From positions 3,099,083 through 3,163,082 of the forward strand of contig NZ_AP018207.1 of NCBI RefSeq assembly GCF_002367995.1: a stretch of 64,000 nt of DNA, in the 5' to 3' direction. The notes beneath the pieces are model-generated. The model was not told the DNA's origin and did not search any database. It saw only the letters and a program-made list of their open reading frames with translations. This DNA comes from Calothrix brevissima NIES-22 (GTDB lineage Bacteria > Cyanobacteriota > Cyanobacteriia > Cyanobacteriales > Nostocaceae). Shown here one piece after another: positions 18,667 through 35,478 of the stretch. Position 1 is the stretch's first letter. Each line of letters begins with the position of its first letter. The position numbers were made by a program, and so were the translations under genes.

Positions 18667-20190
18667 GTGGTAGCAGCAAAATTCTGGGAATTTGTCAAGC
18701 TAGAGTCTACGAGTAAGCGCCGGGTGGAAATGATAGTTGCAGCTAAAAGTTATTTGCAAACACAATTAACAGATGGGGTTGAGCTTTCTGATGCTGCGAT
18801 CGCTCGTCACTTGTGGCAACAATTACAACAGCCACATACCAGCGACACTGAAGCAACTCACCTCGCAGAAATTTGTTTGCGCTGCTATATCTCCTACCAA
18901 GTCTACCAAGTTTGTCTTGATTTAGGGTTGCGCTTTGGCAGTCGTCACGGTTTTAGAGCAGAGGATTTGTTACCTTTTGTTTTAGATGATGAAGTTATCT
19001 TAACTACATCTGAAAAACCAAGAGTCCGCAAATCAACTTATGAATCTTTAGCAACCAAGCTGTTAAAAACATTCGATCCGACAAAAGGAACGCTGAATTC
19101 ATGGGTAAATCGCTATGTTAAACAAAATCTAGAACTGAAGCGGTTTTTACTCCAGCATGGCGTGTTGTTAATTAGCGATTGGGCGCTGTTAAATAATACA
19201 AATCCCAAGCAATTACAACGAATTCTGGCAGAAATGTATCATTTAACGCCAGGGGAGATAGAGCAAATCTGTCAATTGTTGATAAGTTATCACGCAGTTT
19301 ATCGTGAAGAACGCTTACAACAAAAATTCTCTGGAGTAAATGTTCGCTGTCAAATTCCCACATCGGAACAGTTAAGCGAGATTGCGCAGGATTTACAAAA
19401 CCGAACTAATCGCAGACTTAGCGAAGAAGCAGTGTTAAAGCAACTGCAAGCAATCGCGCAAAAGCTCAGACAATACCGGATTGTAGCGCAAGGCGGACAT
19501 ATTTCCGCAGTCGCCTACGATCAACCAGAAATTCAACCCATTGTAGAGCGATCGCAAATTACCCAAGATGACGAAACAGAAAAATTTGAATTTATTAACT
19601 TATATCAACAACAATTTCTCGAAGCTTTAGATACAGCAATTTCTCAAGTTGTGGAAAGTTTTATTACTCAACTCCAACGCAAGCGCAGTGCAAATCAAGA
19701 AATTAGCCAATCATTTGTCACCGGATTACATCTTTTTCATTGTCAAGGTAAACCGATGAGCCAAATTGCTCCCGAATTGGGAATGAAAAAACAATATGAA
19801 GTAACGAGGTTATTAAAGTTAAATGATTTGCGGGCAGATATACGCCAAAAACTGTTAATAATTTTACGCGATCGCGTTTTAGAAATAGCTGAACAATTTA
19901 CAGATGCTCAACGCCTAGAAAATTTAGAAAACCAATTAGAAGTAATTTTAGACGAACAAATCACCACCATTATTGAAGAAGCCGAATCAGAAACCAGAAA
20001 CCCCCAGCGAAATCAACCTTTATGTGGATTATTAGCCCGGAGATTGTGCCGTTATTTAGAAGGAAAAAGGGCAGACAAGGGGGACAAGGGGGACAAGGGG
20101 GACAAGGAAGACAAGGAAGTTGAAGAAGCCAGAAGGCAGAGGGCAGAGGGCAGAAGGTTTTGTTTAGAAGGGGATTCTGACCCCTCCTAA
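18667..20190 (+). CDS. Sigma-70-like regulator at the head of the CHAT/DUF1822 operon
   Basis: A 507-residue protein starting at a GTG. LLKTFDPTKGTLNSWVNRYVKQN (about residues 134-156) resembles sigma region 2 of ECF-like factors. FHCQGKPMSQIAPELGMKKQ near residue 360 resembles a region 4 helix-turn-helix. It is longer than an ECF sigma, so DNA-dependent regulation is inferred rather than proven. The last 45 codons are derived from heptamer repeats: KGDKGDKGDKEDKE and then RRQRAEGRRF, a clear case of STRR sequence read as protein. A DUF1822 gene follows 224 bp downstream, in a recurrent cyanobacterial arrangement of sigma-like, DUF1822 and CHASE2 genes. Translation initiation is odd; see the leader feature. 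Confidence 0.55.
   Translation: MVAAKFWEFVKLESTSKRRVEMIVAAKSYLQTQLTDGVELSDAAIARHLWQQLQQPHTSDTEATHLAEICLRCYISYQVYQVCLDLGLRFGSRHGFRAEDLLPFVLDDEVILTTSEKPRVRKSTYESLATKLLKTFDPTKGTLNSWVNRYVKQNLELKRFLLQHGVLLISDWALLNNTNPKQLQRILAEMYHLTPGEIEQICQLLISYHAVYREERLQQKFSGVNVRCQIPTSEQLSEIAQDLQNRTNRRLSEEAVLKQLQAIAQKLRQYRIVAQGGHISAVAYDQPEIQPIVERSQITQDDETEKFEFINLYQQQFLEALDTAISQVVESFITQLQRKRSANQEISQSFVTGLHLFHCQGKPMSQIAPELGMKKQYEVTRLLKLNDLRADIRQKLLIILRDRVLEIAEQFTDAQRLENLENQLEVILDEQITTIIEEAESETRNPQRNQPLCGLLARRLCRYLEGKRADKGDKGDKGDKEDKEVEEARRQRAEGRRFCLEGDSDPS
20073..20157. repeat. Intragenic STRR arrays in the sigma-like gene
   Basis: GACAAGGGG repeats (20073-20119) followed by GGCAGAG repeats (20130-20157) lie inside the coding frame and encode the charged C-terminal tail. 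Similar arrays elsewhere in the window are intergenic. Confidence 0.85.
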
Positions 20191-20250
20191 ACAAGAGCCA
20201 CCAAATTTTCAATTTGGTGGGGGTCTTAAACCCTTACTCCCTTCGGTCGT

Positions 20251-20307
20251 GGCAGAGGGCAGGAATCAGAATTCCCTTCTGCCTTCTGCCTCCTGCCCTC
20301 TGCCTTT
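20251..20307. repeat. STRR array with inverted halves (GGCAGAGGG / CCCTCTGCC)
   Basis: GGCAGAGGGCAGGAAT meets ATTCCCTTCTGCCTTCTGCC and CTGCCCTCTGCC, forming a palindromic heptamer array between the sigma-like and DUF1822 genes. Confidence 0.8.
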
Positions 20308-20337
20308 CTTGATAAATAACTAATGACAAATGACAAT

Positions 20338-20412
20338 TGTACAGACGCGATGAATCGCGTCTCTGACAACTGACAACTGACAACTGACAACTGACAACTG
20401 ACTATTGACTAA
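20338..20412. repeat. TTGTACAGAC element plus TGACAAC heptamer array
   Basis: TGTACAGACGCGATGAATCG leads into CGTCTCTGACAAC and then about six TGACAAC heptamers. The array ends 2 nt before the DUF1822 start codon, leaving no recognisable Shine-Dalgarno. Confidence 0.85.
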
Positions 20413-20414
20413 CT

Positions 20415-21716
20415 ATGATTAACAATCCTACACCAGATTTAGATTTGACCGATGATTTAGATTGGTATCCGCTAAATGAAACCCAAACGGAATTATTACC
20501 AGAACATTTAAATCAAGCCATCAGATTAAGTCAATCAATTAATCTCTCGCAACAACGCTGGGAAGTTTACCTTTGTGCTTTGGGAACTTTAGGCTTTACC
20601 CAATGGTTAAAAGAACGCGCACCTGATTTAGAAATACACAGTGATGCTGCTTCAATTTGGCAACCAGCAACAGCAAATTTATTAGCCGCAGCTTGTAATA
20701 TCCAAGTTGGTGCTTTTAAAATTTGTGTCATCACTGCCAGCGTTTTTAATGACCAACATAGCATTCCTCATGCAGTTTTAGAAATTCCCGATTTTGCGGC
20801 ACATTTTTATGTATTGATGCAAGTTCAGGAAGAAGAACAACAAGTTGCTATCTCTGGATTTATGAACTACGAACAATACCGTAGTTACCAACAAACAGCT
20901 AAATTACAAATAGAGCGAGATTGGACATATACATTACCCCAAAGTTGCTTTAATTCCAATCCTAACGCCTTATTATTAAATCTTCGCTGTCTCCATCCCG
21001 ATGCAATTCAGCTACCTGCAATTGTTCCTGTAGAAACTAACAAAGTTGTGGCTTTAAAACAAAAGTTAATTAGACTGAAACCTCAACTAAAAAATCAATA
21101 TCTCTGGGATTTACTGACAGTTAATGAAAGTATCACCTTATTTAGTAATCTCGATTTAATTAACTGGGTTTATCAAGCAGCGAAACCTTCACTCTTACAA
21201 CCCATCATTAATGTTGGTGCATGGCTAAATAATCAAATAGATACAGTCACTCAAGAATTAGGTTGGCTATTAATGCCATTACCTGCATTTTCCGAAATGC
21301 GTTCCTTTCGTTATGCACAAGAAAGTTTTGACCCAATTCGCGCTAGCTTAGAACAAAATCGAGTATATATTCCCGTATCAGCAAGGGGGGCTTACCGTGA
21401 TTTAGATAGCGAACATAGTAGCGTCAGAATGTATGCAATTACTTGGGAATTGACTGAAACACCAGATAATCCTGAATGGACATTATTAATTGTTTTAGGT
21501 TCTCAACCAGATGCAACAATGCCAAATACTCTAACATTAGAAGTACGCGATGAAACACAACAATTATTTCAGCAATCTCTCACAGATACCAGCCAAGGTA
21601 TTCTCTATGCTCAAGTAATTGGCAGTTTAAACGAACAATTTTCGGTAATAGTCACTGCTGATGATAATGTATTTGAAATTCCGCCTTTTGGGTTAGGGGT
21701 AGGGGCTAGAGGCTAG
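20415..21716 (+). CDS. DUF1822 family protein
   Basis: A 433-residue protein of the cyanobacterial DUF1822 family, recognised by the layout LSQQRWEVYLCALGTLGFTQWL near residue 45, followed by strands such as VGAFKICVITAS, VLEIPDFAAHFYVLMQVQEE and the helical LKNQYLWDLLTVNESITLF. It lacks a signal peptide and is predicted to be cytosolic. The function of the family is unknown. Its constant position between sigma-like and CHASE2-CHAT genes suggests a role in that signalling unit. The final residues GLGVGARG come from a GGGGCTAGAGGCTAG heptamer array that runs over the stop codon. No ribosome site is visible, because a heptamer array abuts the ATG. Confidence 0.75.
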   Translation: MINNPTPDLDLTDDLDWYPLNETQTELLPEHLNQAIRLSQSINLSQQRWEVYLCALGTLGFTQWLKERAPDLEIHSDAASIWQPATANLLAAACNIQVGAFKICVITASVFNDQHSIPHAVLEIPDFAAHFYVLMQVQEEEQQVAISGFMNYEQYRSYQQTAKLQIERDWTYTLPQSCFNSNPNALLLNLRCLHPDAIQLPAIVPVETNKVVALKQKLIRLKPQLKNQYLWDLLTVNESITLFSNLDLINWVYQAAKPSLLQPIINVGAWLNNQIDTVTQELGWLLMPLPAFSEMRSFRYAQESFDPIRASLEQNRVYIPVSARGAYRDLDSEHSSVRMYAITWELTETPDNPEWTLLIVLGSQPDATMPNTLTLEVRDETQQLFQQSLTDTSQGILYAQVIGSLNEQFSVIVTADDNVFEIPPFGLGVGARG

Positions 21717-21764
21717 GGACTAGGGACTAGGGACTAGGGGCTAGGGACTAGAGGCTAGGGACTA
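21691..21764. repeat. STRR array GGGACTA type overlapping the DUF1822 stop
   Basis: Tandem GGGACTAGGGACTAGGGGCT repeats run from the last codons of the DUF1822 gene into the spacer before the CHASE2-CHAT gene. Confidence 0.9.
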
Positions 21765-21823
21765 GTATATCTTTGCATTCTTTCTTTGCGACTTGGCGTC
21801 TTTGCGTGAGTAAATAATTAACT

Positions 21824-24238
21824 ATGAATAATAGCGACTATATTTTTAATTTAAAAGTTCAAAAAATTGACCAAATTTGTTTATTTGAACTCACTTGGGG
21901 AAAGGGACAAAGATTAAATGCACAAATTAATTATCCCCCAGCATTAACTCAGCTATATCAAGATTGGCGACGAGCATATCTAAATTTTTATCGTTCAGAA
22001 AATATGCGCGGACGTACTGTTGATGGTGGTGTGGCTCAACCAATTATCGATTGGCACGCAGAACTAGTGAAAGCCGAAACCAAATTTATGTATGAGTTTC
22101 ATCGCTGGTTACGCAGTTCAGAATTATATGAAATTCGCGCCCAAATTGCCCAAACAAGTCAACAATTTAGTAAAGATAATCCCGATACAAATATAGCTAT
22201 TCAAATATTCCTTACCTGCGCGCCTTTAGAATTAGATCGTTTCCCTTGGGAAGCCTGGGAATTAGGTAATGAATTTGCTACAAATGAGGCAATTCAATTT
22301 ATTCGTACCCCTTTAAATATTTCTACAGAAGCTCAAGAAAAACGTCAAGGTAAACCGCGAATTCTAGCGATTTTAGGTGATCATACTGGATTGAATTTTA
22401 AAGCAGAAAAAGAGGCTTTAAAATCACTTATGCGAATTGCCGATGTAGAATTTGTTGGTTGGCAACCACAACATACAGCAGCTCAAGTTATTCAAGAAAT
22501 TACCGAAGCGATCGCCGACGAGCGCGGTTGGGATGTATTATTTTTTGCAGGGCATAGTAATGAAACAGATCTGACAGGTGGCGAATTAGGGATTGCTCCT
22601 GATGTCTCCATCTCAATTAAAGAAATTGCGCCCCATCTCAGCGCTGCGAAAAAACGCGGACTGCAAGTAGCAATATTTAATTCCTGTAGTGGTTTAAGTA
22701 TTGCTGATGCCTTGATTGACTTGGGTTTTGGACAAGTGGTGGTGATGCGCGAACCCATTCATAATAGCGTCGCCCAAGGGTTTATGGTGCGGTTCCTCCA
22801 AGGATTAGCAAAGCACCTCGATGTGTACGAGTCCTTAATCGAGTCTAGACAATTTCTCAGGATGGATAAAAGCCACACCTACCCTTCATCCTATTTAGTA
22901 CCTTCCTTATTTTGCCATCCGGGGGCGGAACTCTATCGCATCCCGGCTTTTCGCTGGCAACAACGCTTACGTCAAAGTATACCCAATCGCTTAGAGGCGA
23001 TCGCATTAGCTTTAAGTCTCAGTTTAGGTTTTCTCGTTCCCGTTCAAGAACTGCTGTTAGAAGCCAGAGTCTTAACCCAGTCAGTTTACCGCAACGTCAC
23101 AGCCCAAATCCCCAGCGAACAAGCTCCCCCAGTTGCATTAGTGCAAATTGATACAGAATCACTTTACCGTGCGCAAATGCCGAGTAACCAACTTTTACCC
23201 ATGAACCGCAGTTATATCAGTAAATTGGTGGATAGTACGCGCAAATTAAAAGCCTCGGTTGTCGGTTTAGACTTTATTTTTGATACACCACAACAAAATT
23301 TGTCGGGAGATAAAGATTTAACAGAAACGGTGCGTAAAGCAGTCGATGCAAATATGTGGTTAATGTTTGCGGCTGTTTTGGAAGAAAACCGAGAAGTTGG
23401 CACAAATGAAGCATTTGGCATTAATAAGTGGGATTGGACATTGCAAGGATACATCGATGCTTACCCCAACTTTGTCGAAGTTCCAGATGCACAACAAGAT
23501 TGTCGCAAAACTTGCCCCTTTGCTTATTTGCTGTCGCTGGTATATTTAGCCAAAGACGAAATTGAAGGATTTCCCCAACCAAACACCAACCGACAGCAGA
23601 ATTTACGGGCGGAAGTTCTCGATATGCTTCAAAAGCATAACAAACCCGGTAACTTATCTGCATTATCCCAATGGCGATCGCCTTTTGGTTTACAACCCAT
23701 CTTAGATTATTCAATCCCGCCAAAACAGGTGTATCAAACCATACCAGCTTGGCAATTAATTGAACAGCCGGATATTAACAAATTTCCTTTAATGTCCAAA
23801 CAGGTAGTATTAATTGCTGTTGGTAGCGATGAACGCTTAGGAATTGCTTCAGGGCAACCAGATCGGGCACCAGCACCAGCCGCTATCGGTTATTGGACGC
23901 AGCAAAAGCAAACTTGGCTAACTGGCGGTGAAACATTAGCATACATGATTCATCATTTTCTCACCAAACGCTTAGTGATTCCCATCCCGGATATTTGGAT
24001 GATTGGGATTGCGATTATTCTCGGTAAAATCACTGTATTTATCATTAAAAATCAGTCGCGTTTAAGCCTCAGCCGACGCAGACAAATTATGGCAGGTTCC
24101 ATAGGTGCAGTCACTCTCTACGGTATTGGCGGATTGCAACTATACATTTCCGGCGCGATTTTACTTCCCTGGTTTTTACCCTCAGCAGTGTTTTTAGCAT
24201 ACGTTTTACCAGCCACAAGGAGAAACAATCATGCGTAA
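21824..24238 (+). CDS. CHAT-CHASE2 transmembrane protein (caspase-like protease fused to sensor domain)
   Basis: An 804-residue protein. The N-terminal half is a CHAT domain of the caspase/separase clan with the catalytic dyad visible: LFFAGHS (His near 242) and AIFNSCSG (Cys near 288). A transmembrane segment near 387-405 leads into a CHASE2 sensor domain (VALVQIDTESLYR, SVVGLDFIFD, GDKDLTETVR) that should face the periplasm and contains a CRKTC cysteine pair. Two or three C-terminal membrane spans follow (about 722-797). The design suggests an external signal controlling an intracellular protease. The last 8 nt overlap the next gene, so they are translationally coupled. Substrates are unknown. 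Confidence 0.8.
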   Translation: MNNSDYIFNLKVQKIDQICLFELTWGKGQRLNAQINYPPALTQLYQDWRRAYLNFYRSENMRGRTVDGGVAQPIIDWHAELVKAETKFMYEFHRWLRSSELYEIRAQIAQTSQQFSKDNPDTNIAIQIFLTCAPLELDRFPWEAWELGNEFATNEAIQFIRTPLNISTEAQEKRQGKPRILAILGDHTGLNFKAEKEALKSLMRIADVEFVGWQPQHTAAQVIQEITEAIADERGWDVLFFAGHSNETDLTGGELGIAPDVSISIKEIAPHLSAAKKRGLQVAIFNSCSGLSIADALIDLGFGQVVVMREPIHNSVAQGFMVRFLQGLAKHLDVYESLIESRQFLRMDKSHTYPSSYLVPSLFCHPGAELYRIPAFRWQQRLRQSIPNRLEAIALALSLSLGFLVPVQELLLEARVLTQSVYRNVTAQIPSEQAPPVALVQIDTESLYRAQMPSNQLLPMNRSYISKLVDSTRKLKASVVGLDFIFDTPQQNLSGDKDLTETVRKAVDANMWLMFAAVLEENREVGTNEAFGINKWDWTLQGYIDAYPNFVEVPDAQQDCRKTCPFAYLLSLVYLAKDEIEGFPQPNTNRQQNLRAEVLDMLQKHNKPGNLSALSQWRSPFGLQPILDYSIPPKQVYQTIPAWQLIEQPDINKFPLMSKQVVLIAVGSDERLGIASGQPDRAPAPAAIGYWTQQKQTWLTGGETLAYMIHHFLTKRLVIPIPDIWMIGIAIILGKITVFIIKNQSRLSLSRRRQIMAGSIGAVTLYGIGGLQLYISGAILLPWFLPSAVFLAYVLPATRRNNHA

Positions 24239-24956
24239 ATTATTGAGCTTGGCACTTATTCCTTTTGCGATCGCATCTGGCGATTTGAGTAGCGCCCAAC
24301 AGATTCCCCAAACTGGAGACATCATCGCCCAAGCTACCAGTGGAATTAACTCGCTTTGGCAACGCCGCCCAAAACGACGGCTAGCATCAAGAGGTTTTAT
24401 GTGTCCAATTGCACCTGGGTTAGTAGAGACATATATTAGTTGGAGCGATCGCCCCTTATTTTTGTGGCAGTATTTTGGCGCAGATCAAGAAGCAAAACTA
24501 ATGGTACGCGATCGCGAAACCGAAGCAGTCATCTGGGAAAAAACCGTCAAAGTTAGCGACAAACAAGCTGTATACGACGCAGAAAAACCCCTAGAACCAG
24601 GCAAATCTTATCAATGGCAGTTATCGGTATCAAATAATTCTCCGTGGAACTGGTTTCAAGTCATGGAAAAAAGCGATCGCCAAAAAATTCAAGCCGACTT
24701 GCAAAAATTAGAACAACAACTTAAAGCTAACAAAGCTTCATCAGAAGATATTGCCCTTGAAAAAGCCGATTACTTTCTCAATTACGAAATTAAACATCAA
24801 AGAGAACAAGGAAAATTTTACCTTTGGTCTGATGCTTTTCAGGCAATTCACCAAGTAGATAAACCCTCTCCATCCTTCGTGAAGCAACGCGAAGAATTCA
24901 TTGCCAATATTTGTACAGCAAAGCCACCATCAGCCACCAATTCTCAAGTCCAATAA
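24231..24956 (+). CDS. Secreted DUF928-like protein
   Basis: A 241-residue protein starting inside the end of the CHASE2-CHAT gene. Residues 1-22 (MRKLLSLALIPFAIASGDLS) form a signal peptide. The mature part has a beta-sandwich-like region with RPLFLWQYFGADQEAKLMVR, AVYDAEKPLEPGKSYQWQL and a helical tail. This order resembles the DUF928 proteins often encoded beside CHASE2 or CHAT proteins in cyanobacteria, but the match is by eye. It is probably periplasmic and a candidate partner of the periplasmic CHASE2 domain. Confidence 0.6.
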   Translation: MRKLLSLALIPFAIASGDLSSAQQIPQTGDIIAQATSGINSLWQRRPKRRLASRGFMCPIAPGLVETYISWSDRPLFLWQYFGADQEAKLMVRDRETEAVIWEKTVKVSDKQAVYDAEKPLEPGKSYQWQLSVSNNSPWNWFQVMEKSDRQKIQADLQKLEQQLKANKASSEDIALEKADYFLNYEIKHQREQGKFYLWSDAFQAIHQVDKPSPSFVKQREEFIANICTAKPPSATNSQVQ

Positions 24957-24976
24957 AGCATGTATTCATAAATTTT

Positions 24977-25068: not shown

Positions 25069-28000
25069 ATGAAAATACATAATGCGATGTCTTACGACAA
25101 GCCGCTACGCATCTACGCCCGCATTCTTTCCTTCTGCCTACTGCCATCTGCCCTCTTCCTTCTCTCGCCAGCCCAAGCCCAAATCACCCCCGACAACACA
25201 TTAGGCGCAGAAAGTTCTCAACTCATACCAGACATTCCCATTAACGGTGTCAACTACGATTTTATTGAGGGTGGAGCGCAAAGAGGTTCTAATTTATTTC
25301 ACAGTTTTAGCCAATTTAATATTAATGAAAGTCAACGAGTATATTTTAGTAACCCTAACGGCGTACAAAATATTCTCACACGGGTGACAGGTGGACAAGC
25401 TTCAAATATTCTCGGCATATTGGGAGTTAATGGTAATGCCAATTTATTTTTAATAAATCCCAACGGTATTGTATTTGGAAAAAATGCTCAATTAGCTATT
25501 CGCGGAGCATTTACAGCAACTACAGCAAATAGCTTAATCTTTCCCAACAGGGTAGAATTTAGCGCCACCAATCCCCAAGCACCACCTTTATTAACTATCA
25601 ATGTACCAATCGGTTTACAGTTTGGTTCTCAACCTGCAAGTATTACTAATCAATCTGTTAACGGTTTAGGTGTTAATGGTAGCACCTTAGCCATAGTAGG
25701 TGGTGAAATTATCTTAGATAGCAGTAGATTATTTGCCTTAGATGGAAAAGTAAAACTAGGATCTGTGGCAGGAAATACAACAGTTGGGTTGGATGTTAAT
25801 GGTTCATCCTTGGGTTTCGACTTACCAGAAAATTCAGCGAGGGAATCCATCAACTTAAAAAATAGTAGCTTAATTAGGGTAATTGGTAATAGTGAAATTG
25901 AACTATTTGCAGGTGAGATTAAGCTCAATAATTCGTTTATTGTGGGGAACAATGGCGGCTCAATTGTGATTGATGCAACGCAAGTTAGTTTGGATCAACA
26001 GTCTTCAATTCAGAGCGCTACTTCTGGTGCAGCGAATGGGGGTGATATTCAAATTCAAGCCAGTGATGCAGTAACTCTTGATAACGGTAGCTCGATTGTA
26101 TCTACTAACAATCCTTCATCTACGGGTACAGGTGGTGATGTTACTATCAATGCTGGAAAAATCACAATTACCGGAGATGGAATCTTACAAAATACTGGTC
26201 TTACCAGTTTTATCTCCGCAAATACCCGTAGTGCAGGTAATGGAGGAAACCTCAACCTTAATGCTACTGAGTCTGTTAATGTCAATGGCGGTGCTGTCTC
26301 TGTGATCTCTGCGGGTATAGGTAAAGCAGGAAACCTCACTGTCCGGTCAACAGATGCTGTAAATATAACCAACCAAGGCATTTTAGGACTTTCTAGCTTG
26401 AGTTCCGGTTCAACAGGTAACCTGCGAATTGAAACTAACACTTTGCGAGTTCAAAACACCTCATTAGAAGGAGGAATCACAGCAAATACTAGTGCTGGAA
26501 GTGTGGGTTCTATTTCCATTCAAGCTAGGAATGCAGTTGAGGTGACGAATGGCAGCATCCTTACAGGTGTTCAACCCGGAAGTACATCTCAAGCAAGCGC
26601 GGGGGATATTACCATTGAAACCCGGCGAGTCAGCCTCAAAGATGGAGGCTATATTAGTACAAGCACTTTTAGCAGTGCGAATGCAGGTAACATTTTTATC
26701 CAAGCTGATGAGTATATAGAGATTGATGGTGTTTCGGCAACATTTCCAAACTTGAGTAGTGTATCCAGTGATACAAGTTTAGGGGCAACGGGGAATGGAG
26801 GTAATGTCACGATACAAACACCCAGACTCAGCCTAACTCAAGGGGGAACTATCAGCACTGATTCTTTTCGCAGCAGTGGCAATCCTGGAAATATTACTAT
26901 ACGCGCCAAGGATTTAGAACTAGATGGGTTTGTTTTCATCCCTCAGGAACAGTTGATTGGACTAGATTACACTAATGCGCCAGAAGCTTTGTCTAACCCG
27001 TTAGCACAAGAAACTTTATCTCGCTTTGGTGGTTTTACCTTTATCAGTAGAATTTCCTCTGAGGTTAACGGCAGTAATGTAGATATAAATGGTGGCACGA
27101 TAACTATTGATACAGAAAGGTTGCACTTGAGTAATGGTGCAAATATATCAACTTCAGTACTTATGGGACGAGGACAAGGAGGTAATTTGGTGGTTGATGC
27201 CACTGATGCTATTGATATTTCTGGGGTTGGCCCCCAAAGACTTGATAATTCTTTTGCACCATCAGGTTTATTTGCCGATTTGCAAATTGGAGGAATTGGT
27301 TCTGGGGGAAGCATTGATCTAACAACAGGACGCTTAAACCTCAGTAATCAGGGACAAATTTCTGCCGCCACATTCTATCAAGGTAATGGGGGAAATGTGT
27401 CGATTAATGCTAGTCAAATTGATTTAGATGGAAATAGCAAAATTCTCACAGGAGTTAACAGCAAAGCGACAGGTAACGCAGGCAATATCAACATCAAAAC
27501 TCAACTATTAAATGTACAAGAACAATCGCAAATATCATCGTCAACTTTTAACAATGGAGATGGGGGTAATTTAACCATACAAGCTGATAACATTATATTG
27601 ACAGGTTCAGATAGCGAGTTGGGAACTGGCTTATTAACAGCTGTTGACGAAAGGGCTAATGGTAAAGGTGGCGAAATAGATATTACTACAAATCGCCTTG
27701 TTGTCCGTGATGATGCTGAAATTTCTGTCGGCAGTACAGGTAATGGTGATGCCGGAAATATGAAAATTAGGGCTAATTTTTTAGAAATTAATGGCAAAGG
27801 AAGTGCGATCGCATCTTTCACAAATGCAGGTAATGGCGGAGACATCAGCCTCGATATCAGCGATTTATTACTGTTGCGCCGTGGCGGTTTAATTTCCACC
27901 ACCGCAGGTAGGACACAAGCTGGCGGCGATGGCGGTAACATCAGCATTAATTCACCCTTTATCGTCGCCATACCTAACGAAAACAGCGATATTAGCGCTA

Positions 28001-28533
28001 ATGCCTTCACTGGTAAAGGTGGTAATGTTAGCCTCAGCACTCAGGCTATCTTTGGGATAGAACCCCGTCCCAAAACTACAAATCAAAGCGATATCACTGC
28101 CAGTTCTGACTTAGGCGTACAGGGACAAATCACCATCACTCAACCACAAGTCCAACCGCCACAAAAACTCATCGAACTACCAACAGGATTGGTTGACGCT
28201 AGTACAAGATTTGCCCAAATTTGCCCCAGAGGCCGCTATGCTAAACCTTTAGGTTCCTTTATTGTCACTGGGCGCGGGAGTTTACCGCCGAATGCGTTGG
28301 AACCACTCACAGGTATAAATAACCTCAGTCCCTTAGCTACTTTGGATGGGAAAAATGCTGATACTGAAATTAACGCGGAAACTCAGGGAAAACCAAAAGC
28401 GGTGAATTCTGCACCAATTGTTGAGGCGCAAGGTTTAGTGAAAACTGCTGACGGTAAGATAATGCTGGTTGCACAAGCGCCAACAGCCACACCTGCGGCT
28501 ACGAGTAGTTCTGCTGTATGTCCAGGATCTTAA
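25069..28533 (+). CDS. Filamentous haemagglutinin-like (TPS domain) exoprotein 1
   Basis: A 1154-residue exoprotein. A signal peptide (ending near SPAQAQ, residue 38) is followed by a two-partner-secretion N-terminal domain: ITPDNTLGAESSQ, GSNLFHSFSQFN, VYFSNPNGVQNILTRVTGG and NANLFLINPNGIVFG. The middle is a long right-handed beta-helix of GNGGN(I/L)-type repeats. The C-terminus has CPRGRYAKPLGSFIVTGRG and ends SSAVCPGS, almost the same as the neighbouring paralogue. Such TpsA proteins are exported through an FhaC-type outer membrane pore, none of which is in the window. Part of the signal peptide (CLLPSALF) is encoded by CTGCC-rich STRR-like DNA. Confidence 0.9.
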   Translation: MKIHNAMSYDKPLRIYARILSFCLLPSALFLLSPAQAQITPDNTLGAESSQLIPDIPINGVNYDFIEGGAQRGSNLFHSFSQFNINESQRVYFSNPNGVQNILTRVTGGQASNILGILGVNGNANLFLINPNGIVFGKNAQLAIRGAFTATTANSLIFPNRVEFSATNPQAPPLLTINVPIGLQFGSQPASITNQSVNGLGVNGSTLAIVGGEIILDSSRLFALDGKVKLGSVAGNTTVGLDVNGSSLGFDLPENSARESINLKNSSLIRVIGNSEIELFAGEIKLNNSFIVGNNGGSIVIDATQVSLDQQSSIQSATSGAANGGDIQIQASDAVTLDNGSSIVSTNNPSSTGTGGDVTINAGKITITGDGILQNTGLTSFISANTRSAGNGGNLNLNATESVNVNGGAVSVISAGIGKAGNLTVRSTDAVNITNQGILGLSSLSSGSTGNLRIETNTLRVQNTSLEGGITANTSAGSVGSISIQARNAVEVTNGSILTGVQPGSTSQASAGDITIETRRVSLKDGGYISTSTFSSANAGNIFIQADEYIEIDGVSATFPNLSSVSSDTSLGATGNGGNVTIQTPRLSLTQGGTISTDSFRSSGNPGNITIRAKDLELDGFVFIPQEQLIGLDYTNAPEALSNPLAQETLSRFGGFTFISRISSEVNGSNVDINGGTITIDTERLHLSNGANISTSVLMGRGQGGNLVVDATDAIDISGVGPQRLDNSFAPSGLFADLQIGGIGSGGSIDLTTGRLNLSNQGQISAATFYQGNGGNVSINASQIDLDGNSKILTGVNSKATGNAGNINIKTQLLNVQEQSQISSSTFNNGDGGNLTIQADNIILTGSDSELGTGLLTAVDERANGKGGEIDITTNRLVVRDDAEISVGSTGNGDAGNMKIRANFLEINGKGSAIASFTNAGNGGDISLDISDLLLLRRGGLISTTAGRTQAGGDGGNISINSPFIVAIPNENSDISANAFTGKGGNVSLSTQAIFGIEPRPKTTNQSDITASSDLGVQGQITITQPQVQPPQKLIELPTGLVDASTRFAQICPRGRYAKPLGSFIVTGRGSLPPNALEPLTGINNLSPLATLDGKNADTEINAETQGKPKAVNSAPIVEAQGLVKTADGKIMLVAQAPTATPAATSSSAVCPGS

Positions 28534-28593
28534 TCGCAGCGTCTGCTGTGCGATCGCAAAAACTAAGAATGTTCTGCAAATTATTGCGACTAC

Positions 28594-28626
28594 TGCATAA
28601 GTTACACCTCCTCAGAAATACTGATA
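28594..28626 (+). promoter_or_regulatory. TGCATAAGTT promoter-like motif, copy 2
   Basis: TGCATAAGTTACACCTCCTC followed by AGAAATACTGATAG. Layout matches 18514-18546 and 40575-40607. It lies about 40-70 nt before the start of exoprotein 2, suggesting that this gene has its own promoter inside the cluster. Confidence 0.6.
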
Positions 28627-28665: not shown

Positions 28666-31600
28666 ATGAATCAGATACAGAACTGGCTCCAACGTAATTG
28701 TGATCATAAGTTGCTAGTAAAACGACGTAGAATAAAGCGATATAAATGCGATCGCACTTCCTTTCATGAGGGCTTTTGGCGAATATTGGCAACAATCAGT
28801 CTGCAACCAAAGCTCATATTATGCAGCCTCATCTTCTTCAGCAGTGCCCCAGCCTACAGCCAAATCACCCCCGATAACACCTTAGGCGCAGAAAGTTCTC
28901 GCCTCACGCCCAACGTGTTAATTAACGGTGCAAATGCAGATAGAATTGACGGCGGCGCTTTACGTGGTAGCAATCTTTTTCATAGTTTTAGTGACTTTAA
29001 TATTAATAATGGGCAAAGAGTGTATTTTGACAACCCCACCGGAGTGCAAAATATTCTCACGCGAGTCACAGGCGGACAAGCTTCAAATATTCTCGGCACA
29101 TTAGGAGTTAATGGTAACGCCAATTTATTTTTAATTAATCCCAACGGTATTTTATTTGGGCAAAATGCGCGGTTAGATATACGCGGTTCATTTGTGGGGA
29201 CTACCGCCAATGCTGTGCAGTTGGGTAATCAAGGAATTTTCAGCGCCACAAATCCCGAAGCACCACCTTTATTAACTGTTAATCCTTCCGCGTTGTTGTT
29301 TAATCAAATTAATCCCAAACCAATTACCAACCGTTCCCGCTTCAGTGAAACGGATACTGCAAATGCTGCCTTATTTTCGCCAGAACAGGGAAGCCGTTTT
29401 TTAGTAGGTGGAAATATCATCTTTGATGGTGGTCAAATAGGTGTGCTAAACAATCGCCTAGAATTGGGCGGACTAGCAGCAGTGGGATCTGTTGAACTGA
29501 TTGGTAGCGGTAATGAAATGCAGTTAAGTTTCCCAGAAAATGTATCTAAAGCAGATATTACATTTCAAAATAATGCTGCTGCATTGACAACTGGGGGTAG
29601 TCCAATTACTGTTAACGCTCACAACTTGAGCTTGTCTAATAATAGTTTAATTGGCGTAGGTCTTGCAGAAGGGCAGGGAACAGTAGGCATTGCATCAGAT
29701 GACCTAACAATTAATGCGACAGGTACTGTTTCCATAGATGACAAAAGTTATCTTGTAAACTTTGGGTCACAAAATTCTTTGGGTGATACTGGAAATATTG
29801 CTATCAATGCTAAATCAATTCGTCTAAGTAATGATAGCCAAATCGCTACAGATGGTGAAAGAAATCGGGGCGATATTCGCTTAAATGTGCTTGACGATAT
29901 CACACTCGATAGTAATAGCTTTATTAATACCTTTGGCAGCAATGACTCTATTGGCAAATCTGGCGATATTACCTTTAATGCCAGAACGATCAACTTGAGC
30001 AACCGAGCAAGTATTAATTCTGGCAATATTGGGCAAGGACTAGGAGGGAAAATAACTCTGCAAGCCCAAGATTCTGTATCACTTTCAGGCAGTTCTAGTA
30101 TTGCGAGTTCTTCTGCTGCATCTGCATTTGGCGGAGTGAATAACCAACCAAGTGGTGATATTGAAATTACAGCGAGAACTCTTTCACTTGATGGACGAAA
30201 TACCACAATTAGTTCTAGAAATTTTGATGAGGGTCAAGCTGGTAATATTCAAATTATTACTGATGATTTAATTTCGCTGAATGGGTTTGCTACTATTACC
30301 TCTTCTGTCACTGGTCAAGGAAATGGAGGTGATATTCAACTGCAAACGCGAGTATTAACACTCTCTAATGGCAGCAATATTGATACTTTGACACGAGGAC
30401 AAGGTAAGAGTGGCAATTTATTAATTAACGCCTTAGATTCTGTTACTTTGACTGGGACAACAACGCTGGTTGACCCCCGAACTGGAGAAAACCTAATTTC
30501 TGGAAGTAGGCTAGGAACAAATGCTCAAGGTTCTGGAAACGGTGGAAAACTAACTATTAATACTGGACGATTGAGCATCCGCGACGGAGGAGATATTACT
30601 ACAAACGCATTTGTGGGTCAGTCTGGTCAGGGAGGAGATTTAATAATTAATGCCAGAGAATCAGTAGAAGTCGTTGGCACTATACCCAATGGTCGTGCTA
30701 GTAGTGCTATTAGGAGTTCAACTTTTGGCTCTGGAGATGCTGGAAATATGACCATTACTACTCCCCGCTTGAGTGTTAGAGAAGGGGGAAGCATAAACAC
30801 AGCAACAGAGAAAAGTGATAGCACTGGACGGGGTGGTAATTTAACCATTAATGCCTCAGACTTAGTTGAAGTTGTTGGAGTTTCACCTGATGGTCAAGTA
30901 TTCAGCGATATCTTTGCTGGTACTACAGGGTCTGGGGATGCTGGAAATATGACTATTAACACAAGCCATCTGAGTATTCGTGGTGGGGCATTAGTAGGCA
31001 CAAATACTCGTGTATCAAGTAAGGGGAAGGGCGGTAATTTGACCATAAATGCTTTAGATACAGTTGAGGTTGTAGGTACTAGCCCAGATAGTAAAATCAT
31101 TAGTAGACTAACAACATCAACTGGTGGAACTGGCAATGCGGGTAACCTGACTATAAATACTCGCTTTCTCAGTATCCGGGATTTAGGACTTGTATCAGCA
31201 ACTTCCAGCAGCACAGGAAACAGTGGTAATTTAACCGTCAATGCTTCCGACTCAGTAGATGTAATTGGTGCTTCTGCTGACGGGAAATCAGGTACTGTTC
31301 TCACAACTGCGACATCTGGAACTGGCAATGCTGGAAATTTAAATATCAATACTCGCCGCCTCAGTATTCTTGATGGGGGATTTGTCTCCACATCTGCTGC
31401 TGAAAAAACTACAGGTCAAGGAGGAAATTTGACAATTAATGCCTCAGATTTAGTGGAAATTGTTGGTCGATCTTCAGATGATTTATTTGGTAGCTTTCTA
31501 ACAACTGGGACATCGGGATCTGGCAATGCTGGAAATTTAAGCATTACAACTCATCGCCTCAGCCTCAGCAATGGGGGATATATTAATACAACTACAGGTG

Positions 31601-32697
31601 GTGCAGGGCGAGGCGGTAATATTGATATCAACGCCACCAACTCTGTGGAAATCTTGGCAAACCCAGCAGACATAGATTTAGCTGATGGCATATTTACATC
31701 AACTGGTGGTGCTGGTAATGCTGGAGACGTAACAATTCGCACCCAAAGCCTCAGCATCCAAAATGGAGGGGTGGTTAGTGCAAGTACAGTCCCAGAAAGC
31801 ACAGGGCAAGGTGGTAATGTTACTATTAACGCTTCTGATACAGTTGAAGTTGTTGGAATTTCAAATAATGGTCTTCTTCCGAGCTTTATTTCCGTTCGTA
31901 GCCGAGGCGAAGGAAAAGCGGGAGATATCACTGTCAATTCACCACTAATTAAAGTTGAAAATCGCGGTGCAATTAATGCGGAATCTTTTGCCAATGATGG
32001 TGGTAATATTACGTTGAATAGTAATTTATTGTTGCTGCGCCGTGGTGCTAATGTTTCTGCTACTGCTGGTAATCAAAAAGCTGGTGGCAATGGCGGTAAC
32101 ATCAGCATCAATTCATCTTTCATTGTCGCTGTACCAAATGAAAACAGCGATATCTCTGCTGATGCTTTCACTGGTAAAGGTGGTAACGTTAACATCAAAG
32201 TGCAAAATATTTTTGGAACTGAAGCACGTTCCCAGCAGACAAATCAAAGCGATATCACCGCTAGTTCTAACTTAGGCGTACAGGGAGAAATTACTATTTC
32301 GTCACCAGAAGTTCAAACTCCTCAAAAACTGCTGGAACTACCTACAGGATTAATTGATGCTAGTACTCAATTTGCGCAAACTTGTCCCAGAGGCCGCTAT
32401 GCTAAACCCTTGGGTTCCTTTGTTATCACTGGGCGCGGTGGTAGTTTACCGCCTAATACTTTAGAACCACTCACAGGTACAACTAACCTCAGTCCTTTAG
32501 CTACTTTGGATGGGGAAATTATTAATAGTCAAACTGACGCGGGAATACAGGTAAAGGAAGACGCGGTGAGTTCTGCACCAATTGTTGAGGCGCAAGGTTT
32601 GGTGAAAACTGCTGACGGTAATATTATCCTAGTTGCGCAAGCGCCAACAGCAACACCTACTGCTACTAGTAGTTCTGCTATGTGTCCAGCATCTTAA
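28666..32697 (+). CDS. Filamentous haemagglutinin-like (TPS domain) exoprotein 2
   Basis: A 1343-residue paralogue of exoprotein 1. An extended, basic N-terminus precedes a hydrophobic signal region (LILCSLIFFSSAPAYSQ, ending near residue 65), so the true start may be later than the ATG at 28666. The TPS domain is nearly identical in motifs (DNTLGAESSRL, NILTRVTGGQASNILGTLGV). The beta-helix holds about seven clear repeats of roughly 75 residues with the pattern GNAGNLTINTRRLSI..GG. The last 200 residues match exoprotein 1 closely (LPTGLIDASTQFAQTCPRGR). A surface structural or adhesive role is likely. It probably arose by duplication and is kept similar by recombination. Confidence 0.9.
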   Translation: MNQIQNWLQRNCDHKLLVKRRRIKRYKCDRTSFHEGFWRILATISLQPKLILCSLIFFSSAPAYSQITPDNTLGAESSRLTPNVLINGANADRIDGGALRGSNLFHSFSDFNINNGQRVYFDNPTGVQNILTRVTGGQASNILGTLGVNGNANLFLINPNGILFGQNARLDIRGSFVGTTANAVQLGNQGIFSATNPEAPPLLTVNPSALLFNQINPKPITNRSRFSETDTANAALFSPEQGSRFLVGGNIIFDGGQIGVLNNRLELGGLAAVGSVELIGSGNEMQLSFPENVSKADITFQNNAAALTTGGSPITVNAHNLSLSNNSLIGVGLAEGQGTVGIASDDLTINATGTVSIDDKSYLVNFGSQNSLGDTGNIAINAKSIRLSNDSQIATDGERNRGDIRLNVLDDITLDSNSFINTFGSNDSIGKSGDITFNARTINLSNRASINSGNIGQGLGGKITLQAQDSVSLSGSSSIASSSAASAFGGVNNQPSGDIEITARTLSLDGRNTTISSRNFDEGQAGNIQIITDDLISLNGFATITSSVTGQGNGGDIQLQTRVLTLSNGSNIDTLTRGQGKSGNLLINALDSVTLTGTTTLVDPRTGENLISGSRLGTNAQGSGNGGKLTINTGRLSIRDGGDITTNAFVGQSGQGGDLIINARESVEVVGTIPNGRASSAIRSSTFGSGDAGNMTITTPRLSVREGGSINTATEKSDSTGRGGNLTINASDLVEVVGVSPDGQVFSDIFAGTTGSGDAGNMTINTSHLSIRGGALVGTNTRVSSKGKGGNLTINALDTVEVVGTSPDSKIISRLTTSTGGTGNAGNLTINTRFLSIRDLGLVSATSSSTGNSGNLTVNASDSVDVIGASADGKSGTVLTTATSGTGNAGNLNINTRRLSILDGGFVSTSAAEKTTGQGGNLTINASDLVEIVGRSSDDLFGSFLTTGTSGSGNAGNLSITTHRLSLSNGGYINTTTGGAGRGGNIDINATNSVEILANPADIDLADGIFTSTGGAGNAGDVTIRTQSLSIQNGGVVSASTVPESTGQGGNVTINASDTVEVVGISNNGLLPSFISVRSRGEGKAGDITVNSPLIKVENRGAINAESFANDGGNITLNSNLLLLRRGANVSATAGNQKAGGNGGNISINSSFIVAVPNENSDISADAFTGKGGNVNIKVQNIFGTEARSQQTNQSDITASSNLGVQGEITISSPEVQTPQKLLELPTGLIDASTQFAQTCPRGRYAKPLGSFVITGRGGSLPPNTLEPLTGTTNLSPLATLDGEIINSQTDAGIQVKEDAVSSAPIVEAQGLVKTADGNIILVAQAPTATPTATSSSAMCPAS

Positions 32698-32765
32698 CCC
32701 TGATTTATTCATCATCTGAATCAGAAAATAATGCTTCTAAATCTTGATAACCACGGTGAACAACA

Positions 32766-32798
32766 AGATCCCCGACTTCTTCAAGAAGTCGGGGATCT
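32766..32798. repeat. 33-bp perfect palindrome, copy 2
   Basis: Identical to 1627-1659, including the flanking AACA and GA. It lies between exoprotein 2 and the TPR-CHAT gene and could attenuate readthrough. Confidence 0.85.
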
Positions 32799-32841
32799 GA
32801 GGCTCTGTTTTTTTATCTCACGTAAAGGCGCAAAGAGGAGT

Positions 32842-35478
32842 ATGAAGAGAGTTAAAAGGTTTGTGGTGTTAATGGCGATCGCTCTTTTATTATCTATGAC
32901 ATCGCCAGGGTTAGCGCAAGTAACTAATATCGTTCAAGTTCCTGGTTTATCTGTGGAACAGCAAGCGCGTAATTCCTACGCTAAAGGTGAGTTTACAGAG
33001 GCGGCGCAGTTATTTCAACAAGCAGCGCAGGCTTATAAAGCTGCGAATAAACCGATTCAGCAAGCGTTGAGTTTAAGTAATTTATCTTTGTGCTATCAAC
33101 AGTTGGGAAAATGGGATGAGGCGCACCGTGCTATTACTGAAAGTGTTGCCCTATTAAATACTATTAAAGAAGCGAAATCAGATAAATCTTTGGCTTTAGC
33201 TCAAGCTCTGGATATTCAAGGCGGGTTACAATTGGCACGGGGTCAATCGGAAGCTGCTTTGAAATCTTGGGAAGCGGCGACATCTATATATAATCAATTA
33301 AATAAACCAACTCGGGTACTGACTGCCCAAACTAACCAAGCACAGGCTTTACAAAATTTAGGTCTGTATAAAAAAGCAATTTATCTATTGGAAACGGCGT
33401 TAAAGTTACCCCAGGTTGCAAATATAAACCCCGAACAACTCAAACCTTTATTAGAAAAAATTGCAGCGACACCAGAAACAGCTACGGCGTTAAGAACTTT
33501 GGGTGAATCGTTGCGGGTGGTGGGGAATTTTCCGCCAGCGACTTTAATTTTAGAGCGCAGTTTGGCGATCGCGAATCAATTACAATTACCAGAGGCGATC
33601 GCATTAACCCAACTTAGCCTCGGTAATCTTGCCCGTACTCAAATCAGCTTGACTAAAGCTAGCAAAAATCCGATTAATCCCCAAGTGGCGATCGCATTTT
33701 ATCAACAAGCTGCTATCTCTGCACCTCTAAATTTAAAGGTACAAGCGCAAGTTAACCAACTCAGCTTACTGGTGGAGACTAATCAACTAGATGCAGCCAA
33801 GGCTTTATTACCACAGCTACAACAAAATATTGCAGCCTTACCACCCAGCCAAAGTGCGATCGCATCACGGGTAAATTTGGCGCAAACAATGATACATATG
33901 CAAAAGCAACCCGCCAGCCAAATTTCTGAAACAGAAATCGCTAAACTATTGGCAGTAGCGGTACAACAAGCCCAAGATTTAGGCGATATACGCATACAAG
34001 CTGATGCACTGGGTACTCTAGGTAACGTTTATGAACAAGCACAGCGTTGGCAAGATGCAGAGAAGTTAACTCAACAAGCCGTACAATTAGGGCAACAAAT
34101 CAACGCTGGCGATATTGCTTATCGTTGGCAATGGCAATTAGGTAGAGTATTAAAAGCCCAAGGGAAAAGCAAAAGTGCGATCGCCGCTTATAAAGAAGCC
34201 GTAGGTACAATTAAATCATTACGTGCCGACTTAGCCGCAGCCAATCCCGATGTGCAATTTTCCTTTCGCGAAGCAGTTGAACCAATTCACCGTCAACTCG
34301 TCGGCTTGTTAGTTGAATCCAATGAAAAAGATAATTTAAAAGCCGCGCGAGATGTCATTGAAGGCTTACAGTTAGTCGAACTCGATAACTTCTTTCGCGA
34401 AGCTTGTCTCAATGGTAACCCGGAACAAATAGACAAAGTTGATCCCAAAGCCGCAGTTATTTATCCCATTATTCTCGAAGACCAACTAGCGATTATTGCC
34501 AGCTTACCAAACTCTCAAGCAAAAGCCGACAAACAAGCAGAACGTGATTTTCGCTACTATAAAAAACCTATCAATCGCCAAGCAATCGAAAAGCTAGCAA
34601 CCAGACTAGGAGAAGATTTAAAGCAATCAACAGCTTTTGATTTGACCCTGCCCCAACTGCAAGAAATGTATAATTTAGTTCTTAAAGATGCAGTCGCAAA
34701 CTTAGAAACTAGTCAAGTAGAAACATTAGTGTTTGTCTTAGATGGGGTATTGCGCAACATTCCAATGGCGGCGTTACATGATGGTCAACAATTCCTGATA
34801 GAAAAATATAGTATTGCCCTCACACCCGGATTACAATTATTAGCACCGCGATCGCTCAAACAAGAACGCTTAGGAGCCTTAGTAGGTGGGTTAAGTGAAG
34901 CACGTTCAGGATTTACCGCCCTACCTAACGTTCAGGAAGAAGTAAACAAAATTCAATCAGAACTACCCTCTCAAGTTCTTTTCAACCAAACATTTACAAA
35001 TTCCGCCTTTCAAAACCAAATTTCTGCTGTTCCTTTCCCCATTGTCCACCTAGCCACCCACGGACAATTTAGTTCCCAAGCAGATGACACATTTATTCTC
35101 ACCTGGGACGGCAAAATCAAAGTTAACGAACTCAGTGGAGTTTTAAAAACCGTCGAAGTCTCCCAAGACAACTCCCTAGAACTCTTAGTTTTGAGTGCTT
35201 GCGAAACAGCCGCCGGCGATAATCGTTCCGCCTTAGGATTAGCAGGTGTAGCTGTGCGTTCCGGTGCAAAGAGTACAGTAGCAACCCTGTGGCGCGTAGA
35301 CGATGAAGCCACCGCAACACTCATGAGTCAATTTTACGAGCAACTAGTCAAAGCCAATCAAACAGGTATCACCAAAGCCGAAGCTTTACGCCACGCCCAA
35401 CTTAGCATCCTAAAGAATCCAGAATATCAAACCCCATATTACTGGGCACCTTACGTATTGTTAGGCAATTGGACTTAG
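32842..35478 (+). CDS. Secreted TPR-CHAT protease-like protein
   Basis: An 878-residue protein. The frame is open back to 32731, but AGAGGAG just before the ATG at 32842 and the signal peptide it begins (VLMAIALLLSMTSPGLAQ) fix the start. TPR repeats occupy about residues 40-470 (SYAKGEFTEAAQLFQQAAQA, LGNVYEQAQRWQDAEKL). A C-terminal CHAT domain has the dyad HLATHG (His near 739) and VLSACET (Cys near 785), then GARSGAKS-like and TLWRVDD strands. It would act outside the cytoplasm, unlike the CHASE2-linked CHAT. Similar TPR-CHAT proteins are common beside TPS exoproteins in cyanobacteria, so processing of these exoproteins is plausible but unproven. Confidence 0.85.
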   Translation: MKRVKRFVVLMAIALLLSMTSPGLAQVTNIVQVPGLSVEQQARNSYAKGEFTEAAQLFQQAAQAYKAANKPIQQALSLSNLSLCYQQLGKWDEAHRAITESVALLNTIKEAKSDKSLALAQALDIQGGLQLARGQSEAALKSWEAATSIYNQLNKPTRVLTAQTNQAQALQNLGLYKKAIYLLETALKLPQVANINPEQLKPLLEKIAATPETATALRTLGESLRVVGNFPPATLILERSLAIANQLQLPEAIALTQLSLGNLARTQISLTKASKNPINPQVAIAFYQQAAISAPLNLKVQAQVNQLSLLVETNQLDAAKALLPQLQQNIAALPPSQSAIASRVNLAQTMIHMQKQPASQISETEIAKLLAVAVQQAQDLGDIRIQADALGTLGNVYEQAQRWQDAEKLTQQAVQLGQQINAGDIAYRWQWQLGRVLKAQGKSKSAIAAYKEAVGTIKSLRADLAAANPDVQFSFREAVEPIHRQLVGLLVESNEKDNLKAARDVIEGLQLVELDNFFREACLNGNPEQIDKVDPKAAVIYPIILEDQLAIIASLPNSQAKADKQAERDFRYYKKPINRQAIEKLATRLGEDLKQSTAFDLTLPQLQEMYNLVLKDAVANLETSQVETLVFVLDGVLRNIPMAALHDGQQFLIEKYSIALTPGLQLLAPRSLKQERLGALVGGLSEARSGFTALPNVQEEVNKIQSELPSQVLFNQTFTNSAFQNQISAVPFPIVHLATHGQFSSQADDTFILTWDGKIKVNELSGVLKTVEVSQDNSLELLVLSACETAAGDNRSALGLAGVAVRSGAKSTVATLWRVDDEATATLMSQFYEQLVKANQTGITKAEALRHAQLSILKNPEYQTPYYWAPYVLLGNWT

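Follow-up and report, generated by a model that had tools for sequence, protein, structure and literature searches.

Regulated proteolysis of anti-sigma factors is well known from RseA/RpoE (DegS). Among systems with caspase-like proteases, Kaur et al. (2021, eLife, PMC8195603) report, in the section that treats them, caspase-CHASE2 proteins with extracytoplasmic function (ECF) sigma and DUF1822 neighbours, and suggest a transcriptional output. In the CRISPR-associated CASP system, according to the parts of PMC10028731 devoted to it, Csx30, an inhibitor of CASP-sigma, is cut by the TPR-CHAT protein Csx29, and the locus of the system itself contains CASP-sigma motifs; the cut falls in a loop of the C-terminal domain of Csx30, not in the interdomain linker. 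Here we analyze a seven-gene locus, built around a CHAT-CHASE2 protein, at positions 18667-35478 of a 64-kb window from Calothrix brevissima NIES-22 (the window is the whole stretch of DNA analyzed, 64,000 nucleotides (nt), and its numbering is used throughout). We read the whole locus, with a probability of roughly 0.6, as a protease-based transmembrane signalling switch that would free a sigma-like protein, SIG. This reading draws on which genes are present and how they are conserved, on the distant homology of SIG to sigma factors, on a promoter-like motif with its geometry, strand preference and targets, and on the link between this motif and genomes that carry SIG. A first-pass annotation of the same DNA knew of no described function for the arrangement, whose core trio has already been described computationally as EACC2 neighbourhoods (relevant section of PMC8195603); as there, CHAT and CHASE2 lie in one protein beside DUF1822 and remote sigma-homologous genes.

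The first-pass annotation listed seven genes on one strand, and both open reading frames (ORFs) and Pfam matches uphold their presence and order. They include two large exoproteins of the two-partner secretion (TPS) type and are as follows (aa, amino acids; E, expectation value):

18667..20190, + strand: SIG, predicted divergent sigma-70-like protein, 507 aa (profile-profile match to Sigma70_r4-bearing homologues)
20415..21716, + strand: DUF1822 protein, 433 aa (Pfam E 6.8e-42)
21824..24238, + strand: CHAT-CHASE2, 804 aa (Pfam CHAT 7.1e-13 and CHASE2 5.1e-17 in a single protein)
24231..24956, + strand: DUF928 protein with signal peptide, 241 aa (Pfam E 1.7e-6; 28.4 bits, cut-off 26)
25069..28533, + strand: TPS exoprotein 1 (TPS1), 1154 aa (TPS E 7.3e-56)
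28666..32697, + strand: TPS exoprotein 2 (TPS2), 1343 aa (TPS E 3.9e-48)
32731..35478, + strand: exported TPR-CHAT, 915 aa as called (Pfam CHAT E 5.4e-59, plus TPR)

Spacings along the seven ORFs (start minus preceding end) are 225, 108, -7, 113, 133 and 34, the CHAT-CHASE2 and DUF928 genes overlapping by 8 nt. By its predicted topology, CHAT-CHASE2 would be a cytosolic caspase-clan protease fused, with membrane segments, to a periplasmic sensor. Its catalytic His and Cys (H244 and C288) are kept in 115/115 aligned homologues from fetched loci, part of them redundant, and a conserved stretch lies N-terminal to CHAT in four CHAT-CHASE2 paralogues. PDB profile searches gave no match for CHAT-CHASE2 and no significant one for DUF1822. 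Both TPS exoproteins match TIGR01901 (NCBIfam), with signal peptides read from the sequence; POTRA_2, marking the TpsB transporter expected next to a two-partner secretion exoprotein, has 11 matches in the genome and 0 in the window. The TPR-CHAT start is likely better set at about 32842 (MKRVKRFVV...), where the signal peptide begins.

The core of the locus is widely conserved. A genome scan with four CHAT-CHASE2 paralogues returned 528 matches, and the best 80 loci were read, a sample that leans towards the window (closest named relative of the window protein: Tolypothrix sp. FACHB-123, 94%). Among these best 80 of 528, DUF1822 lies upstream of CHAT-CHASE2 in 50 and SIG in 49 of the 69 loci having at least 3.5 kb upstream, and DUF928 follows in 67 of the 76 having at least 0.9 kb downstream, most commonly by the same 8-nt overlap (35 loci). 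Sigma-like, DUF1822, CHAT-CHASE2 and DUF928 genes thus recur in fixed order across many cyanobacteria. The SIG profile matches 16/116 cyanobacterial genomes, and when the search began from SIG, DUF1822 was adjacent in 18 of 20 fetched loci (20 of the 23 matches outside the source genome were fetched). The source genome itself (9.26 Mb) holds, fragments included, 78 CHAT, 11 DUF1822, 35 TPS, 16 DUF928 and 22 CHASE2 matches, and the window cluster is one of four in it with a sigma-like gene of this lineage (type I). A second, deeply diverged lineage (type II; source-genome members L011-L014 are about 26-28% identical to the window protein) keeps the same neighbours: in 20 loci from 17 genomes, DUF1822 is found in 19 and DUF928 in 19.

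It was through the upstream genes of this distant type II lineage that the homology of SIG was reached. Searched directly, SIG matched neither Pfam (at 0.01) nor NCBIfam, and a PDB sequence search gave nothing usable. Type II counterparts in the same gene position carry Sigma70_r4 (L014, 4.4e-13; L012, 3.7e-8; L013, 1.3e-4, below the cut-off), and hhalign joins a 45-member SIG profile to Sigma70_r4-bearing homologues with 97% probability, helix-turn-helix included; the value is 97% with five or three such sequences and a weak 8% with a single one. SIG is accordingly classed as a remote sigma-70-type protein by prediction, its region 4 helix-turn-helix being seen through profile alignment only, and the first-pass label of a sigma-like first gene stands at that level. 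The AlphaFold2 (AF2) model of SIG is nearly all-helical (mean pLDDT 85). Foldseek ranks 1, 2 and 4 for this model are chains of Thermus transcription complexes (E 0.26-0.77), the leading ones of which we take, by position, to be sigma A. SIG also ends in a low-complexity GDKGDKGDKEDKE tail (20070-20190), and most relatives are without such a tail.

A motif was learned by expectation-maximization from sigma-like genes only, using 60 of their upstream regions after redundancy was removed; the window locus had been removed as redundant and its close relative L032 kept. The result, AAAA.TGCATAAG.Tca......CCAGAAaTA, reads as the hexamers TTGCAT-N17-AAATAT, a sigma-70 geometry, and reaches a log-likelihood of 732 against 171 for the upstreams of other genes. 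Both half-sites were found in 53/71 SIG genes, with a 17-nt spacer in 49, one nt shorter in 3 and one longer in 1; 5/71 shuffled controls passed the same threshold. In the window, three sites exceed 30 bits and the next best scores 10.7:

18509..18541, + strand: promoter-like site 1 (TTGCAT at 18513, 17-nt spacer, AAATAT at 18536)
28589..28621, + strand: promoter-like site 2 (CTGCAT at 28593, 17-nt spacer, AAATAC at 28616)
40570..40602, + strand: promoter-like site 3 (TTGCAT at 40574, AACTAT at 40597)
40636..41511, + strand: histidine kinase gene, candidate member of the same regulon

Site 1 (31.8 bits) stands 126 nt ahead of the sigma-like gene. Sites 2 (30.7 bits, 45 nt ahead of TPS2) and 3 (30.5 bits, 34 nt ahead of the kinase gene) were both outside the training set, and site 2 was also recovered by a whole-genome pattern search. 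The step from sigma-like factor to exoprotein expression proposed in the first pass thereby gains sequence support, since a motif learned upstream of the SIG family stands before TPS2. The fetched loci (3.45 Mb, both strands, overlapping loci included) contain 181 sites above 16 bits, against 1 in 2.07 Mb of a plain shuffle of 120 loci (one strand). In the part of these loci scanned by gene class, sites favour the same strand over the opposite one for SIG (48 versus 10, n = 76), CHAT (13 versus 3, n = 119) and TPS genes (5 versus 1, n = 65). Rediscovery of the motif from 48 CHAT upstreams of the source genome alone gave a clear downstream half only (293 versus 164), and a candidate motif upstream of type II SIG genes (11 sequences) was not convincing (154 versus 124 shuffled) and was set aside.

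After later loci were added, there were 165 unique sites above 18 bits, 146 of them with a gene behind: 47 sigma-like and 44 of the TPR class, with CHAT in 22 of the 41 TPR-class targets scanned. A further 39 proteins were scanned jointly (34 of the 44 unclassified targets, short ones and repeats omitted, with the window kinase and four genes behind weaker sites) and yielded subtilase (6), C14 caspase (3), trypsin (2) and HisKA_3 (2); the set holds the window kinase and its L034 relative, a similar kinase gene also with a site (22.5 bits), and the tally leaves the two HisKA_3 bearers unnamed. By a simple hydrophobicity rule, 52/79 non-core targets have signal-peptide-like starts, compared with 307/1000 control ORFs. 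The exoprotein output that had been proposed gains its support at TPS2, which has a site, and needs widening: the commonest targets are TPR or TPR-CHAT proteins, not TPS, and most non-core targets look exported. One small ORF, L228:2158-2442 (94 aa), lies 34 nt behind a 31.9-bit site and is possibly a regulon member; its ELSPEELDAVSGG is, we presume, double-glycine-leader-like, and the product possibly a bacteriocin-like peptide.

The distribution of sites among genomes bears on which regulator the motif belongs to. A strict pattern matches 9/116 genomes, 7 of them from the 16 that match SIG and 2 from the rest; a relaxed one finds 22 sites in the source genome (control 0) and 21 in G109, which has SIG (control 2). 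Matrix scoring covered the pattern matches of 53 family-, order- and class-level genomes among the 116; of these 53, 10 carry type I SIG, 6 match SIG more weakly and 37 lack it. The ten hold 46 supported sites, at most 8 of them before SIG itself, and six of the ten have 2-17 each; the six weaker-SIG genomes have 1 altogether, and the 37 without SIG have 6, with none in 33. It is rather improbable, as we judge it, that the motif is an activator site or the promoter of another sigma factor, with the SIG gene merely one of its targets. Such a regulator would suit the wide scatter of motif targets, the 18/71 SIG genes without a site and the three genomes without SIG that have one supported site each; against it, site counts track the SIG family across the 53 scored genomes, the TTGCAT-17-AAATAT geometry with its one-base tolerance is sigma-70-family-like, and the strongest exception, G107, which holds 3 of the 6 supported sites in genomes without SIG, carries a SIG relic about 1.1 kb from one of them. 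This relic (G107:C235:31411-31560, L241) is an apparently decayed SIG fragment, and motif sites persist there before exported-looking TPR genes.

The sensor side of the switch recurs with other outputs. On the main contig of the source genome, 13/14 islands have DUF928 and CHASE2 no more than 5 kb apart, where 0.36 would be expected, and the CHASE2 proteins adjoining DUF928 carry CHAT, a histidine kinase with receiver, a nucleotide cyclase, GGDEF-EAL, TIR_2 or AAA_35; the one in L158 has no further Pfam domain. At L027, a response-regulator-like gene precedes the one for a CHASE2 protein that looks like a kinase (HATPase_c E 0.0043, below the cut-off), and L030 repeats this gene set; both lie beside DUF928, TPR-CHAT and TPS genes, and the L027 TPS protein is the nearest paralogue of TPS1 among the fetched loci of the source genome (62.6% identity). 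We infer that CHASE2 and DUF928, the latter a putative periplasmic partner of the former, form an interchangeable sensor unit, which elsewhere has a kinase, cyclase, GGDEF-EAL or TIR instead of CHAT as output. Because CHASE2 beside DUF928 is elsewhere fused to ordinary signalling outputs, CHAT occupies a signalling position, and CHAT with the sigma-like protein and DUF1822 would replace kinase and response regulator.

The same evidence bears on a different role for CHAT, in which SIG acts on the motif while CHAT-CHASE2 spares DUF1822, CHAT being an effector of cell death or defence and DUF1822 an adaptor. We hold this unlikely. It agrees with Kaur et al. (PMC8195603), who in the section concerned assign EACC2 genes to apoptosis- or immunity-like systems with autopeptidase activation, and a CHASE2-TIR protein beside DUF928 is compatible with it and equally with signalling. 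Against an effector speak the fusions in this genome of CHASE2 beside DUF928 to histidine kinase, cyclase and GGDEF-EAL, and the scanned motif targets, which are mostly exported proteases and TPR proteins. The TIR case is L159:14648-17797, where DUF928 adjoins a CHASE2 protein that carries TIR_2 domains, giving the same sensor pair a TIR output.

Two classes of CHAT genes separate in the source genome. In a tree of 59 of its CHAT domains, one clade of 20 (support 99/94) contains 17 of the 20 CHATs near TPS genes, and two of the other three lie near DUF928. Two of the 17 are single ORFs with TPS and CHAT, in L128 (1884 aa) and L129 (2945 aa, its TPS domain seen in the genome profile search and missed by hmmscan); the L128 ORF (4339-9993) also contains a family 2 glycosyltransferase. 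The motif marks the other class: a site above 14 bits precedes 15/38 CHAT genes outside the TPS clade and 0/20 inside it, in 11 of the 15 at 29-56 nt before the start (2/60 CHAT ORFs were not scorable, and one of the 15 is a frame-split gene outside the tree). The window TPR-CHAT belongs to the TPS-linked clade, and the site at 28589 probably drives its transcription together with that of TPS2; a TPS-class TPR-CHAT behind a motif-bearing TPS2 therefore means that the window joins both classes. From the clade linkage and the two natural fusions, the exported TPR-CHAT probably processes or sheds TPS exoproteins. A simple rule (score at least 1.5) finds a signal-peptide-like hydrophobic stretch at the start of 52/60 CHAT ORFs of this genome, and the bulk of the CHAT set may therefore work outside the cytoplasm. 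Elsewhere in the genome, eleven TPS genes stand in tandem with a POTRA_2 protein in front (G000:C1 6976374-7006801). A C-terminal motif of TPS proteins, considered as a mark of CHAT substrates, was dropped, as by eye it is common to most complete TPS proteins regardless of CHAT neighbours.

How firmly the TPS genes belong to the locus is a separate matter. The first-pass annotation had named conservation of the neighbourhood among its checks, and the core genes are indeed conserved together. Of the 65 type I cores with 3 kb or more of downstream sequence, only 9 are followed by TPS genes (within 10 kb) and 29 by a TPR/CHAT protein (within 12 kb), both counted on either strand. Together with the 78 CHAT and 35 TPS matches in the genome, the many type I loci without TPS behind would fit chance clustering, that is, unrelated secreted-protein genes that happen to follow a conserved sensor operon. 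We consider this very improbable: 13/20 TPS islands (one of the 13 a fusion) have a strong CHAT no more than 8 kb away, where 2.06 would be expected, type II loci have TPR-CHAT neighbours in 16/20 (often on the opposite strand) and TPS in 9/20, and TPS2 has the motif. One type II locus of the source genome, L013, repeats the whole order sigma-DUF1822-CHAT-CHASE2-DUF928-TPS-TPR-CHAT on a single strand.

In the signalling switch that we favour, CHASE2 and its periplasmic partner DUF928 would sense something outside the cytoplasm and activate the cytosolic CHAT. By analogy with Csx29, Csx30 and CASP-sigma, CHAT would then cleave DUF1822, the presumed holder of inactive SIG, and the released SIG would transcribe from TTGCAT-N17-AAATAT promoters, in its own operon as a positive loop, at TPS2 with the exported TPR-CHAT behind, at the nearby histidine kinase gene and, elsewhere in the genome, at many exported TPR-CHAT genes and genes for other exported proteases. 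What is proposed here is that SIG recognizes the motif, that there is a signal, that DUF1822 serves both to inhibit SIG and as the substrate, and that control runs in this direction. DUF1822 is the candidate anti-sigma factor and protease substrate, likened to Csx30 because it has two domains joined by a flexible link and its gene stands between those of a sigma factor and a CHAT protease. Its AF2 model has an alpha/beta domain, a low-confidence segment (261-301) and a beta-sandwich; conservation in the segment (mean 0.45) is similar to that in the folded parts (0.31-0.43), W270 being invariant and N266 and W284 nearly so. Two simple patterns for this interdomain segment matched no other protein of the fetched loci, having caught only 4 and 0 proteins overall.

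Several results weigh against this reading. Besides the 18/71 SIG genes without a site by the two-half test and the scarcity of TPS genes behind type I cores, neither TPS1 nor the window TPR-CHAT has its own site, and in the scanned part of the fetched loci only 13/119 CHAT and 5/65 TPS ORFs have one, many of these ORFs belonging to the TPS clade or to genomes whose SIG status is not established. Four type I SIG genomes (G002, G011, G057 and G114) have 0-1 supported sites, and single supported sites occur in G055, G078 and G086, where even a threshold of E 0.01 brings up no SIG match. For SIG itself, the 25 Pfam families shown for the 45 members include no sigma domain, and Foldseek returned no match at E 0.001 or better (best E 0.26).

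Beyond the locus, a broader proposal is tentative and stands somewhat short of even odds: a new class of signal transduction in which a CHASE2-CHAT receptor, the proteolytic counterpart of a sensor kinase, frees a new sigma-70 subfamily from DUF1822 to act at TTGCAT-N17-AAATAT promoters, the regulon consisting of exported caspase-like proteases and adhesin-like exoproteins, with a separate exported CHAT clade processing TPS proteins. Since the promoter-like motif stands before SIG, exoprotein and exported protease genes, regulated proteolysis may switch on a cell-surface programme. From uncharacterized genes of many cyanobacteria the proposal derives a circuit that can be tested, since its promoters and targets are named, and it gives a handle on why this cyanobacterium has dozens of exported-looking caspase-like proteins.

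Other features of the window touch the locus less closely. A response-regulator-like ORF, read from the sequence, lies at 42207-42857, downstream of the kinase gene, and a 1826-aa ORF at 43113-48593 (- strand) presumably encodes a TamB/translocation-assembly protein, which it resembles. A 29-nt palindrome, ATCCCCGACTTCTT-N-AAGAAGTCGGGGAT, occurs at 32768-32796 and 1629-1657 and has 89 copies in the genome (control 0); one copy falls in the gap preceding the likely true TPR-CHAT start. In the window, Rfam detected zero RNA families and a generic promoter and terminator scan was uninformative.

As far as our searches reach, the promoter and regulon, the interchangeable CHASE2 and DUF928 unit, the TPS-linked CHAT clade with its fusions and the DUF1822 domain layout are new. 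Limited term searches of the open-access literature found no paper pairing CHAT with filamentous hemagglutinin, or CHASE2 with CHAT in cyanobacteria, and for two-partner secretion with caspase in cyanobacteria only apparently unrelated papers. The locus resembles HetF in being based on a CHAT protein of filamentous cyanobacteria, there a putative protease of the divisome, and differs in that the parts of PMC8406250 dealing with HetF mention no set of sigma, DUF1822 and DUF928 genes for it. EACC2 proteins, as given in the relevant section of PMC8195603, join a caspase domain within an invariable N-terminal module to a C-terminus that varies and may be CHASE2, and have sigma and DUF1822 neighbours; the locus has the caspase-clan domain, the CHASE2 C-terminus and both kinds of neighbour in common with them. 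That section, however, mentions neither DUF928 nor TPS exoproteins, a promoter or a regulon; the terms DUF928, hemagglutinin and two-partner are absent from the main text, and the section calls DUF1822 a TPR protein, whereas the model here gives an alpha/beta domain plus a beta-sandwich.

The likeness to RseA/RpoE (DegS), a system cited in a passage of PMC10028731, lies in the succession of envelope signal, proteolysis and sigma release, as proposed for this locus; the difference is that sensor and protease are here one protein, whose protease would, by its predicted topology, face the cytosol. Nine ORFs scanned by Pfam and nine by NCBIfam contain no Cas family (Cas7-11/Csx30), the rest of the window being unscanned. 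With Craspase, as presented in the relevant parts of PMC10028731, the locus has in common a CHAT protease, a two-domain protein beside a sigma factor (there the sigma inhibitor) and sigma motifs in its own locus. The inputs differ: target RNA through Cas7-11 in that system, and CHASE2/DUF928 in the envelope here, so that, if the proposed switch is true, CHAT protease-to-sigma signalling extends beyond CRISPR systems to an envelope sensor.

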